From: an uncultured Alphaproteobacteria bacterium
GTDB lineage: Bacteria; Pseudomonadota; Alphaproteobacteria; HIMB59
Assembly: GCA_902617515.1 (NCBI GenBank)
Contig: CACMWX010000010.1
Coordinates: forward strand, 1-37,265
Length of the DNA stretch: 37,265 bases
Direction of reading: 5' to 3'
Shown here: positions 1,210-4,755 of the stretch, in pieces
Layout of the letters: each line of letters starts with the position of its first letter
How positions within the stretch are numbered: position 1 is the first letter of the stretch
Notes under the pieces: model-generated
Databases searched by the model: none
What the model was told of the DNA's origin: nothing
What the model saw: the letters and a program-made list of their open reading frames with translations, nothing else
Translations under genes and position numbers: made by a program

Positions 1210-1605
1210 CTAATATTTTAAATTTTTCTTAATTTTGTTCCAATACTGAAAAAATCTTTTTGCTGGATGAAGATAATTCTCATGCAATAAGAAGTAATCG
1301 GGTAACTGCTCTAAATCATATTTTTCACCTAATTTTTGAAATAAATTTTGGTAAATAGGTCTAAAAGTAGATTTTGTTATAATTTTGGATATGGTGTTTT
1401 GGTTATGAATTTCTTGCAATATCTCATATGTATTACCTCTATAGATTTCAGCCCCTGCCTCTTTAGCTAAAAAGTATCTATTTTCAATGATTTTGTCACT
1501 AAGCTCATAGCCTTCAGTTAAAGTATCATCAAAGATGTAAACAGGATTACCCTCAATACCGGCTGGCACTCTCATAAACTCGTCATATAAATAAATTAAG
1601 TTCAT
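1210..1605 (-). CDS. Stand-alone photolyase N-terminal (antenna, Rossmann-like) domain protein
   Basis: This 131-residue protein resembles the N-terminal alpha/beta domain of DNA photolyases/cryptochromes. Features are a first strand followed by NPVYIFDD (residues 20-27, as in the PVxPVFIxDP region), R43-YFL, a segment around 50-60 (AGAEIYRGNTYEI) matching the R-G-(D/N)-hydrophobic part of photolyases, and a C-terminal stretch (DYFLLHENYLHPAKRFFQYW, ~103-122) matching the H-x-x-LL-x-P ... F-x-x-W-x end of the domain. In photolyases this domain holds the antenna chromophore. It lacks any FAD-binding part; that part is encoded just upstream and overlaps it by 4 nt (ATGA), which suggests translational coupling and a complex. 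Similarity is weak in the middle, so the assignment leans on the neighbour. No signal peptide. Confidence 0.65.
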   Translation of the reverse strand: MNLIYLYDEFMRVPAGIEGNPVYIFDDTLTEGYELSDKIIENRYFLAKEAGAEIYRGNTYEILQEIHNQNTISKIITKSTFRPIYQNLFQKLGEKYDLEQLPDYFLLHENYLHPAKRFFQYWNKIKKNLKY

Positions 1606-2339
1606 AAATTGGGAAAGAGCCTCGAGCTAATTTCTTCATAGCTGCCATCTATTTCTCTATTCTTCTCAGGTATAATATCTATGCTTTTGTGACAGTATTT
1701 GTGAACATTTTCTAAATTAAATATATAAGGTTTTCCTGCAAAGGTACTCGCGATCCACTGCCAAGAGAAGTTATTACTTGCAATATCTCCATCAAGTAAA
1801 TGACTCATAAAAAACTTCGCTCCAGCTTGCCATTTCACTCTTCTAAAGTGTATAATATAAGAAGCCAAATACATACGTGCATGGTTATGAAGGTACCCAG
1901 TGCTAGTGAGTTGCTCGATGAAAATATTAATAATCTGTGTTGGTGTTGTTGCTGACATAACATCCTCAGGCAAGTTATCTTGATATTCTTGAGCTTGAAA
2001 TCCAGTTTTATATTCTTCAACATCTGTCCATAGTTGATCAGGATGATGGTAGGCATAGCTTCTCCAAAAATCTCTCCATGCTAATTCTTGAATAAACTTT
2101 TCACTCTCAACAAAATTATATTTTTCTCGAATATATTGAAAGAGCTCTTTGTTAGTGATGATTCCATATTTTATATGGGCTGATAATCTTGAAATTTGTC
2201 CATTCAAAAAGTTTCTTGTTTTTGCATAGAGAGCAGGATTAAAAGAATTGAATTTTTCCAGTGCATCATGTCTTGATAACATGGTGCTATTCGAATTTTT
2301 CGATATTGGTATTAGATCTTGAACACTTGAGATTTTCAC
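1602..2339 (-). CDS. Photolyase/cryptochrome FAD-binding catalytic domain protein, no antenna domain
   Basis: The protein is 245 residues, about half a normal photolyase (~450-480), and corresponds to the C-terminal helical FAD-binding domain. Motifs: SRLSAHIKYGIIT (50-62), ELAWRDFW (85-92), TGYLHNHARMYLAS (147-160), DGDIASNNFSWQW (183-195), ASTFAGKPYIFN (197-208). Aligned by motif to E. coli PhrB, residues that contact the pyrimidine dimer (E274, W277, N341, M345, W384) correspond to E85, W88, N152, M156 and W195. The flavin-contacting D-G-D-x-A-x-N-N block is intact, and two Trp of the electron-transfer chain match W170 and W193. The usual W-x-x-G-x-T-G-x-P-x-(V/I)-D-A segment before the HNxxRM motif is replaced by an unrelated stretch (~126-145). 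The start is GTG: no in-frame ATG exists before an upstream stop. It lies 24 nt after pxpC. Light-driven CPD repair is likely; a sensory role is possible. Confidence 0.88.
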   Translation of the reverse strand: MKISSVQDLIPISKNSNSTMLSRHDALEKFNSFNPALYAKTRNFLNGQISRLSAHIKYGIITNKELFQYIREKYNFVESEKFIQELAWRDFWRSYAYHHPDQLWTDVEEYKTGFQAQEYQDNLPEDVMSATTPTQIINIFIEQLTSTGYLHNHARMYLASYIIHFRRVKWQAGAKFFMSHLLDGDIASNNFSWQWIASTFAGKPYIFNLENVHKYCHKSIDIIPEKNREIDGSYEEISSRLFPNL

Positions 2340-2363: not shown

Positions 2364-3242
2364 CTAATAGATTGTTTGTAAATCGAAGGTGATTTTGGTT
2401 TCAGGGGGGAGCTGAGAGATTCTTGAAATATCCACTTCATTTAAAATTGCAATTTTTGGATACCCGCCAGTACAAGGAATGTCCCGCATTAATACAATGG
2501 GTTGCCCATCACTTGGCACTTGAATAGACCCAGGTAATATTCCTTCAGACAAAATATCATGAGATTTAGAACTAATGAGACTCTCACCTTTGAGCCTGAT
2601 ACCCATTCGATCACTTTGATTAGTTATTGTAAAAACACCGCTAATAAAAGATTGTAGAGTATTGTCTGAGAAATATTGAAGTTGAGGACCGGGATAAACT
2701 TTGAAATTGGTTACCTTTTCTAAATCAGGTTTTGGTATAGAGATAAGATCCCAAGAGCTTACATCTTTGTTAATGTGAAATATATCTTCATCATTTAAAG
2801 GTCGATTAATCGAACCTATTCTTGCTTTTGTGTCAGTAGAGTAGCTATTAAGACAAGGCTCTAATCCAAGTCCATGCTCAAAAGCTATGTATCCATATAC
2901 TGAGTCTATTGTATTGTGAATAATCAATTCATCGCCCTCAAATAAATTAATACTTTTATAGGACTGGCACTCAAGCTGGCTGTTGTTATTTTTCTGAATA
3001 CTCATATTACAATTACCACCAATACAAATCTTAACAGATCCTTCTTTTACTTTTATTGAAGGCCCCACATAAGCAAATTCTAGAAATTGATTTTGATGAT
3101 TGGGTATAATTTTTTGTAGCTCTGTAATAATTCTTTGGTCCATTGCTCCACTTGGTGAAATTCCTAAGTGCTGATATTGAAATCTTCCAAAGTCTTGTAT
3201 CGTTGAATGAGTCCCTGCACGAGTGATTATGATTGAGTTCAT
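2364..3242 (-). CDS. pxpC: 5-oxoprolinase subunit C (biotin-dependent carboxyltransferase/KipA family)
   Basis: Subunit of the prokaryotic 5-oxoprolinase PxpABC, which uses ATP to open 5-oxo-L-proline to glutamate. The N-terminus I-T-R-A-G-T-H-S-T-I-Q-D-F-G-R matches the family's V-x-x-x-G-x-x-T-x-x-Q-D-x-G-R block, followed by GISPSGAMD (~28-36). The C-terminal half has SDRMGIRLKG, EGILPGSIQVPSDGQPI and GGYPKIA, the best-conserved motifs of the family. Length 292 compares with a usual 300-330. The ATG overlaps the stop of pxpB by 4 nt (ATGA), showing a coupled pair. A cysteine-bearing GGNC segment near residue 88 sits where related proteins have a Gly-rich loop. It could also be annotated KipA-like, but pxpA is next door, which supports oxoprolinase. 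Confidence 0.92.
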   Translation of the reverse strand: MNSIIITRAGTHSTIQDFGRFQYQHLGISPSGAMDQRIITELQKIIPNHQNQFLEFAYVGPSIKVKEGSVKICIGGNCNMSIQKNNNSQLECQSYKSINLFEGDELIIHNTIDSVYGYIAFEHGLGLEPCLNSYSTDTKARIGSINRPLNDEDIFHINKDVSSWDLISIPKPDLEKVTNFKVYPGPQLQYFSDNTLQSFISGVFTITNQSDRMGIRLKGESLISSKSHDILSEGILPGSIQVPSDGQPIVLMRDIPCTGGYPKIAILNEVDISRISQLPPETKITFDLQTIY

Positions 3243-3958
3243 GACGAGTATTCCTTGATCAATTCATTTAATGAAAAATTATATTTTCTAATTTTTTCAA
3301 ACTCTGAAAGTGATACGGAGTAAAATTTTACTTCATCACCTGGAAGAAAAAGGGAAGGGTAAGAACTTTGTAAATCAAAAATATCAAAAGGTATTTGTCC
3401 AATTATATTCCAACCTCCAGGTGAAACTTTTGGATATATACAGGTATGGTTTTTTGCTATACCAATGGATCTAGCAGGAATTTTTACCCTTGGAGTAGCT
3501 AACCGCGGTGTGATTAATTGGGAGGGAACATCCCCTAAATACGGAAACCCCGGCATGAAGCCTATATAATATGTATAGTAACGAACTGATGAGTGAAGAT
3601 TGATAACCTCTTCTTTTGTAATCTGGTGTAGTTTTTGGATGATCTTTATATCTAAAGCAAAATCTTCATTATAACATGCCGGTATCTCCCATGTTTTAGT
3701 GACTTTTTTGTTAGTTTGCGAGTTTGTATCTTTCATTTTCATACTAATTTTGTCTTTATTTTGATCTCTAATTTTTGAATTTTCAAAAATTACAACTATT
3801 TTATTGAATGATGGAATAATGTTTAGTGATGGAAGATTAAGGTTTGAAATATTTAAAAATGTCTCATTTACCTCCTGTGATATAGATTTTGAGGTTTCAT
3901 TCCCAAAATCTAAGACTAAACCCCGATCCCCATAAGAATTTATTCCTTTGAAATACAC
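3239..3958 (-). CDS. pxpB: 5-oxoprolinase subunit B (KipI/allophanate hydrolase subunit 1 family)
   Basis: Partner of PxpC in the 5-oxoprolinase complex; soluble, cytoplasmic. The diagnostic C-terminal block is clear: YIGFMPGFPYLGDVP (~131-145), PRLATPRVKIPARSIGIA (~150-167) and YPKVSPGGWNIIGQ (~174-187). The N-terminal third is divergent and Lys/Asn-rich around residues 66-85, where a loop seems expanded. The start is a GTG; the next upstream in-frame codons give no ATG. Only 20 nt separate it from the divergent pxpA start, so its promoter must lie inside pxpA's 5' coding region. It heads a tightly spaced minus-strand operon through pxpC, the two photolyase genes and the small CxxC gene. Confidence 0.92.
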   Translation of the reverse strand: MYFKGINSYGDRGLVLDFGNETSKSISQEVNETFLNISNLNLPSLNIIPSFNKIVVIFENSKIRDQNKDKISMKMKDTNSQTNKKVTKTWEIPACYNEDFALDIKIIQKLHQITKEEVINLHSSVRYYTYYIGFMPGFPYLGDVPSQLITPRLATPRVKIPARSIGIAKNHTCIYPKVSPGGWNIIGQIPFDIFDLQSSYPSLFLPGDEVKFYSVSLSEFEKIRKYNFSLNELIKEYSS

Positions 3959-3978
3959 ACTAATATCATAATGTAACT

Positions 3979-4755
3979 TTGGTGCATTTGAATAAAATTA
4001 ATTTAAATTCTGATATCGCAGAAAAAGATCTCAGTTTTTTCGAGACTGTTGATGCGCAGTTAATAAATAAAATTAGCTCTGCTAATCTTTCCTGTTTATA
4101 TCATGGGGGATCAAAAGACGTTGTTTTTAAAGCACTAAATTACTGTAAAACAAAACGTGTTTCAGTTGGTGCGCATATTTCTTTTTTAGATAGAGATAAT
4201 TTTGGGCGCACAAAAATTAATTGGAACAAAAAATTAATCCAAGAAATTGTCAAAGACCAGTTAATGTTTATGCATAATCTTGCCTCTAATATTAATTTTC
4301 CAGTAACACATGTTAAGCTTCATGGAGCTTTGAGTAATATGGCATGCGTTGACCAAGACCTTTCTAGTGAAATAGTAGATGTTTTAAAAAAAAATTACCC
4401 ATCAATGATATTACTTGCACCTGCTTTAAGTGAACTTGCTAAAATCGGTATGAATTGCAACATACCCACCGCCCTTGAGATTTTTGCAGATCGCACTTAT
4501 GAAGATGATGCTACTTTAACACCTCGTTCCATTAATGACTCTTTGATAACAGATCCTAGAAGCGCCAAGGAGCATGTAAAAGCCATGCTTATACAAGGAG
4601 GGATTATTTCACGTAATGGTGATACTCTAAAAACAAATATTCATTCAGTGTGCGTTCACAGTGATACGCCAAATAGTGTTGAAATTTCTGAACAAATTTG
4701 CATACTCCTTCATGAAATGAAGATAAAAAAAGCAGCTCTTCCAGAATTTTTCTAA
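3979..4755 (+). CDS. pxpA: 5-oxoprolinase subunit A (LamB/YcsF family)
   Basis: Catalytic-barrel subunit of 5-oxoprolinase (ATP-dependent hydrolysis of 5-oxoproline to glutamate with PxpBC). Motifs: INLNSDIAE at the N-terminus (family D-L-N-x-D-x-G-E, here with Ile-Ala), VGAHISFLDRDNFGR (~56-70), THVKLHGALSN (~109-119), EIFADRTYEDDATLTPRS (~167-184) and CVHSDTPNSVEI near the C-terminus. Length 258 is normal. There is no ATG start: in-frame candidates are TTG 3979, GTG 3982 and TTG 3988; the last would give MNKINLNSD, closest to the family's usual short N-terminus. No clear Shine-Dalgarno was seen. Unusually, it is divergent from pxpBC rather than in one operon with them. A gamma-glutamylcyclotransferase-like gene follows after 7 nt. 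Confidence 0.92.
   Translation: MVHLNKINLNSDIAEKDLSFFETVDAQLINKISSANLSCLYHGGSKDVVFKALNYCKTKRVSVGAHISFLDRDNFGRTKINWNKKLIQEIVKDQLMFMHNLASNINFPVTHVKLHGALSNMACVDQDLSSEIVDVLKKNYPSMILLAPALSELAKIGMNCNIPTALEIFADRTYEDDATLTPRSINDSLITDPRSAKEHVKAMLIQGGIISRNGDTLKTNIHSVCVHSDTPNSVEISEQICILLHEMKIKKAALPEFF

Follow-up and report, generated by a model that had tools for sequence, protein, structure and literature searches.

The window analyzed in this study (i.e., the whole stretch of 37,265 nucleotides) is a contig of a 0.95-Mb genome that is 63% complete. On its minus strand, two ORFs encode photolyase-related proteins and overlap by the four nucleotides ATGA, as the preliminary description had reported (Table 1). 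The gene for the FAD domain comes first and that for the N-domain-like protein second, which is the reverse of the order in an ordinary photolyase. Ahead of the small-gene start, no Shine-Dalgarno-like sequence was seen by eye in the window genome, which would fit termination-reinitiation.

Table 1. Coordinates of the putative photolyase genes and associated features in the window.
Feature	Position	Strand	Description
Large-chain gene	1602-2339	minus	245 aa, GTG start; predicted photolyase FAD-binding catalytic domain; lacks an N-terminal domain and the Fe-S cysteine set
Small-chain gene	1210-1605	minus	131 aa, ATG start; alpha/beta protein related, by profile comparison, to the photolyase N-terminal domain
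ATGA, stop/start overlap of large and small genes	1602-1605	minus	
66-aa CxxC...CxxC protein gene	1007-1207	minus	directly downstream of small gene

By pattern search, the CxxC...CxxC ORF was found after the small gene both in the window and at the 10 genus loci listed, with no match to the pattern at L101 or L107; its product is a possible third member of the operon. The upstream region (2364-4755) contains the 5-oxoprolinase-subunit-like genes CT_A_B and CT_C_D (Pfam), as well as an ORF that we take to be LamB/YcsF-like, and the CT_A_B gene lies on the same strand as the photolyase gene and ends 24 nt before it. The host genome, at 63% completeness, already has four FAD_binding_7 genes (G000 C6, C11, C10, and C1), i.e., two with PF00875, one with DPRP, plus the window pair.

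Conservation and co-inheritance of the two genes

Within the genus of the window, the large gene was found in 41 of the 52 genomes (E 3e-112 or better) and the small gene in the same 41. The match coordinates of the two genes have one base in common in 41/41 of these genomes, which corresponds to a 4-nt overlap, and the overlap was confirmed at the DNA level in 6 of the 41. It should be noted that the small gene appears frame-shifted near its end in G027 and is truncated by the contig end in G028. The absence of the pair from the other 11 of the 52 genomes, including G024 (93% complete) and G037 (92% complete), counts against the explanation favored below. Among 385 genomes of the class, the small gene occurs in 11, which are exactly those with the split-type large gene (E 1e-90 or better), and adjoins the large gene in all 11, four of which belong to the window genus; nine other genomes of this set contain single-chain relatives (ORFs of 379-466 aa). 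The two genes are neighbors, co-inherited, and overlap stop to start, and the pair is conserved well beyond the single genome from which the preliminary description knew it.

A tblastn-confirmed scan of genome contigs yielded 47 loci. The near-identical ones are in records of uncultured Alphaproteobacteria, Pelagibacteraceae, and HIMB59, while the distant ones, with large chains 49-54% identical, are from SAR116, a Rhodospirillaceae MAG, other alphaproteobacteria, and a Lentisphaerales MAG; the second gene at the distant loci encodes 140-152 aa with a clearer N-domain signature. When 22 pairs were compared, the overlap as computed was 4 or 8 nt in 19, and L159 becomes the 20th overlapping pair if a GTG start is used; the genes abut at L107 and are 14 nt apart at L158. 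For the pair in the Lentisphaerales MAG, either horizontal transfer or mis-binning may apply, and the ORFs beside it are presumably of planctomycete/verrucomicrobial types. In a scan of 349 genomes of the phylum, six had a match at E up to 1e-40, each being the window's own genome or one of the same class; since every row listed came from that class, other classes are tested poorly. One scan of viral contigs (query A1) gave no relative; ten phage records matched, all at about 29-33% identity.

Both genes are under purifying selection. Relative to four relatives whose large chains are 83-86% identical (dS about 1.1-1.3), dN/dS was 0.060-0.086 for both genes; the values of 0.08-0.27 obtained with closer relatives are based on few changes. 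A local frameshift or pseudogene was ruled out by the overlap in 41/41 genomes together with dN/dS, so that the earlier argument against a frameshift origin stands and the pair is not the product of a recent frameshift. Chance is likewise excluded because the pair is conserved and dN/dS is low.

In a search of 100 genomes of relatives, the pair was present in 41 and a single-chain-type match (E 1.2e-29 or better) in 33, i.e., in 32 of the 48 genomes of the sister family and in G024 of the window genus. At this threshold, none of the 100 genomes contained both types. This mutual exclusion suggests interchangeable roles, but may reflect one historical replacement. The single-chain relative of G024 (L115), where no pair match was found, groups with genes of other families (98/80 with L164), and the pair of G024 was possibly replaced by a single-chain gene through transfer.

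Domain assignment of the two chains

The large chain matches FAD_binding_7 (Pfam 1e-24), and its closest solved structures are class I photolyases (E 3e-23), which bears out the earlier claim that the catalytic domain is encoded first. It has a single Cys, and its AlphaFold2 model is poor (pLDDT 53).

The small protein taken alone is much less easily placed. Nothing in Pfam scored above the cut-off (DUF3567, E 0.031; BTH_I0359, E 0.014), and a sequence search with the window small ORF gave no convincing match. When a profile of 22 small proteins was aligned with 15 ordinary photolyase N-domains by hhalign, the probability was 97.5% over 131 columns, and another set, comprising 24 PF00875 domains, gave 96.0% over 132 columns (E 4.8e-9). 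The small proteins of the genus matched the remaining small proteins at 99.0%. Since the profile of the genus alone gave 18.5-26% against photolyase N-domains, the assignment of the small chain runs through the family. The family also matched the C-termini of fused Deinococcus proteins at 99.6%. Of 300 column-shuffled controls, six exceeded a probability of 50 (2 of 100 in an earlier run) in alignments of just 4-14 columns, which were taken as end-gap artefacts, and the remaining 294 were at E 0.031 or worse; the reversed alignment of the small family gave 0.7%, and six unrelated flanking families at most 15.7%. The residues R117, F118, Y121, W122, and K127 are invariant across the 22 small sequences, and the conserved motif RFFxYWNxxxK forms the end of the protein. 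These profiles place the small chain in a family that is related to the N-terminal domain of photolyases.

The predicted fold is consistent with this relationship. The AlphaFold2 model of the small chain had a pLDDT of 83.6, with residues 105-114 under 50 and the next helix at about 52-65. Photolyase/cryptochrome N-terminal parts made up 47 of the best 50 VIA-align rows, and the best match was PhrB 4dja residues 2-178 (Z 10.6, rmsd 3.0, 123 residues). Thus, the detached N-domain-like partner put forward in the preliminary description was recovered by family profile and by predicted fold. The three other rows were Thermus thermophilus proteins (Z 8.2-8.3), which we take to be Usp proteins. Foldseek placed a Usp domain first by E-value (7ji4, 6.8e-4), with cryptochromes/photolyases at 1.3e-2 and worse, and Usp and photolyase N-domains have a common hhalign signal (91.2% over 78 columns), so the small gene might be a recruited Usp-like protein beside an FAD gene instead of a photolyase N-domain itself. 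This reading is very improbable in our view: the profile of the small family favors the N-domain (96.0% over 132 columns) over 21 Usp domains (63.0% over 36 columns), the fused Deinococcus C-termini do likewise (96.4 vs. 41.9%), and so do the Z scores (10.6 vs. 8.3).

Fused relatives and published photolyases of reversed order

According to Haney et al. (2022), phr4 and phr5 of Synechococcus/Cyanobium are adjacent genes with reversed domain order, for which heterodimers or frameshifting were considered, and phr6 is a fused form; UV-survival tests were included (PMC9426592). The claim of the preliminary description that a co-encoded detached antenna partner was not well described is therefore not supported. 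The reversed two-gene order itself is already known from 2022, and the window pair is an Fe-S-free variant of this published architecture. Among the literature matches listed, judged from titles and abstract openings, no other report of a split or reversed photolyase and no paper on the pair in HIMB59/AEGEAN-169 appeared; further background papers are PMC9498864, PMC9649867, PMC9178010, PMC8948257, and PMC10308929.

The window pair is like Phr4/Phr5 (Phr6) in that the FAD gene comes first, an adjacent N-domain-like gene comes second and a fused form exists. On Deinococcus plasmids, the two domains are fused in the same order (L126-L128, ORFs of 456-480 aa), while in Deinococcus sp. QL22 (L129) they are split with a 4-nt overlap. 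The hosts, however, are mostly alphaproteobacteria here, and most pairs overlap by 4 or 8 nt, whereas Synechococcus phr4 and phr5 are reportedly separated by seven G-C base pairs (PMC9426592). The labels Phr4/Phr5 and NewPHL, as used here, rest on architecture, on the cysteine spacing of relatives and on order.

The published Phr4 has C169, C254, C257, and C263, i.e., a spacing of 85-3-6 (PMC9426592). Four cysteines spaced 85-3-(4 to 8) are found in seven relatives, which are the fused L126-L128 (85-3-7), the split L129 (85-3-4), and L157-L159 (85-3-6 in L157 and L159, 85-3-8 in L158). In contrast, the four Fe-S cysteines are absent from the window and from all 18 rows of its clade. In a tree of 55 of the 67 matching ORFs (left out were L003, L113, L119, L139, L162, and L165 and the second ORFs of L103, L106, L108, L133, L142, and L153), these 18 rows form one clade (99/97), and a single loss of the cysteines is the simplest reading. 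Because the cysteines are absent, the window pair is a variant of the Phr4/Phr5 kind, not a strict member.

The neighbor of the pair clade is a group of single-chain, inverted proteins (100/98), labeled NewPHL-type by architecture, and the window pair lies outside it. Support is 94/82 for the branch joining the 25 rows of the pair clade and 95/78 for the one that includes Persicobacter, so this placement is not firm; the FAD domain of Phr4/Phr5 is reported beside Phr7 (PMC9426592). As described in PMC13274461 and PMC9426592, NewPHL has an inverted topology and repairs CPDs in single-stranded DNA. The window pair and the NewPHL/SPL/Phr7 proteins have in common that the catalytic domain comes first, the residues are CPD-type and there is no Fe-S set; their clades appear as neighbors in the tree, at the support just given. 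NewPHL reportedly goes back to Emmerich 2020, and SPL to Xu 2021, by the account of citing papers. The NewPHL-type relatives are, however, one chain of 379-466 aa where the window has two ORFs, and the similarity of their C-terminal domain to the small protein is weak, at 79.9% for the complete small family and 2.7% when the genus is used by itself. The Persicobacter C-termini matched the small family at 95.7%, and ordinary N-domains gave at most 18.2% with the single-chain and 5.4% with the Persicobacter C-termini. A class I CPD photolyase of the E. coli PhrB type has both domains and the active-site residues in common with the window pair, but is one chain with the N-domain first and belongs to a separate clade (100/100).

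Active-site residues and the proposed enzyme

When the window sequence was aligned with 13 others, E85, W88, N152, M156, D183, and W195 did not vary and D185 was retained in 13 of the 14 (N in L101), so that the residues singled out in the preliminary description are indeed kept. E85, W88, HNxxRM, and N189 of the window match class I enzymes. We assigned what we take to be the E. coli equivalents of E85, W88, N152, M156, and N189; these five are CPD-type in the window and also in the Fe-S-bearing relatives, except L129 (Q for E). The active-site residues thus look CPD-type throughout, and the large chain was shown, as far as sequence comparison goes, to be the FAD and lesion-binding domain with such residues.

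We regard the pair as a real, conserved, putative two-gene photolyase that is probably functional. The reading we favor, with somewhat better than even confidence, is a two-subunit, light-driven CPD photolyase. It would belong to an alphaproteobacterial branch, without Fe-S cysteines, of the Phr4/Phr5 type (Phr6 when fused), and would be a relative of single-chain NewPHL. Haney et al. (2022) instead predicted (6-4) activity for Phr4/Phr5. In their Synechococcus phr4 mutant, UV-C survival was 20-30 times lower while UV-B survival was normal, which they interpreted as (6-4) repair, and E. coli with phr4/phr5 survived UV-C 10-20 times better, with no gain after UV-B (PMC9426592). The UV-C effects in the two hosts count for the reading we favor. 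Fe-S cysteines, as in the prokaryotic (6-4) photolyases (FeS-BCP), are indeed present in the relatives L126-L129 and L157-L159. The mutant data and the CPD-type residues found here are in conflict, and the UV-C/UV-B contrast and the E. coli light/dark results count against the CPD reading, although they come from an Fe-S-bearing relative. That the window pair is a (6-4) photolyase nevertheless seems unlikely: its clade is without the Fe-S cysteines, and its class I-like residues differ from those of L003, the host's own DPRP-type protein, which has HHxxRL and no Asn at the N189 position. According to PMC12083526, water takes the place of this Asn in the prokaryotic (6-4) enzymes.

Light made no significant difference to the UV-C protection that phr4/phr5 conferred on E. 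coli (PMC9426592), which is odd for a photolyase. A role without light-driven repair, as a light sensor or as a protective protein acting independently of light, would accord with this result and with the Pfam FAD match of the large chain, which stops at 134 of 203. We consider such a role quite unlikely given that the dimer-contact residues are invariant in the 14 sequences, and Phr4/Phr5 may simply have been without cofactors or partners in E. coli.

In the CPD photolyase proposed here, the ATGA overlap would couple translation of the two chains, and the small chain would use its C-terminal RFFxYW helix, presumably equivalent to the FxPxW that terminates an ordinary N-domain, to dock onto the FAD domain. 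The small chain would thereby close the FAD side as a lid, with or without a bound pigment. Light would excite the reduced FAD and the dimer would be split, and by analogy with NewPHL the substrate might be mainly single-stranded DNA. We give about even chances to a form of this same two-chain enzyme in which the small subunit has a structural role only, as a lid that carries no antenna pigment; the chain is just 131 aa long, and in the model residues 105-114 and the next helix have low pLDDT, as if they became ordered only on the partner.

More tentatively, reversed two-chain photolyases of alphaproteobacteria, Deinococcus, the Lentisphaerales MAG, and cyanobacteria may constitute a wide family of obligate heterodimeric CPD photolyases, in which the N-domain would be a detachable lid acting in trans and the Fe-S cluster, lost once in the window clade, would be dispensable and hence no (6-4) marker here. 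The natural split and fused versions make the role of the photolyase N-terminal domain testable by omitting one subunit, and raise the question of whether a neighboring gene has been overlooked beside some "short" photolyases. The Fe-S-free branch is also a test case for cluster function and bears on the (6-4) vs. CPD reading of Phr4/Phr5.

Ordinary photolyase/cryptochrome-type ORFs were also observed close to some of the reversed genes. At L103, L106, L108, and L153, such an ORF lies on the opposite strand in the vicinity of the pair, and on the Persicobacter plasmids (L133 and L142) a single-chain reversed photolyase-like gene overlaps the start of one.
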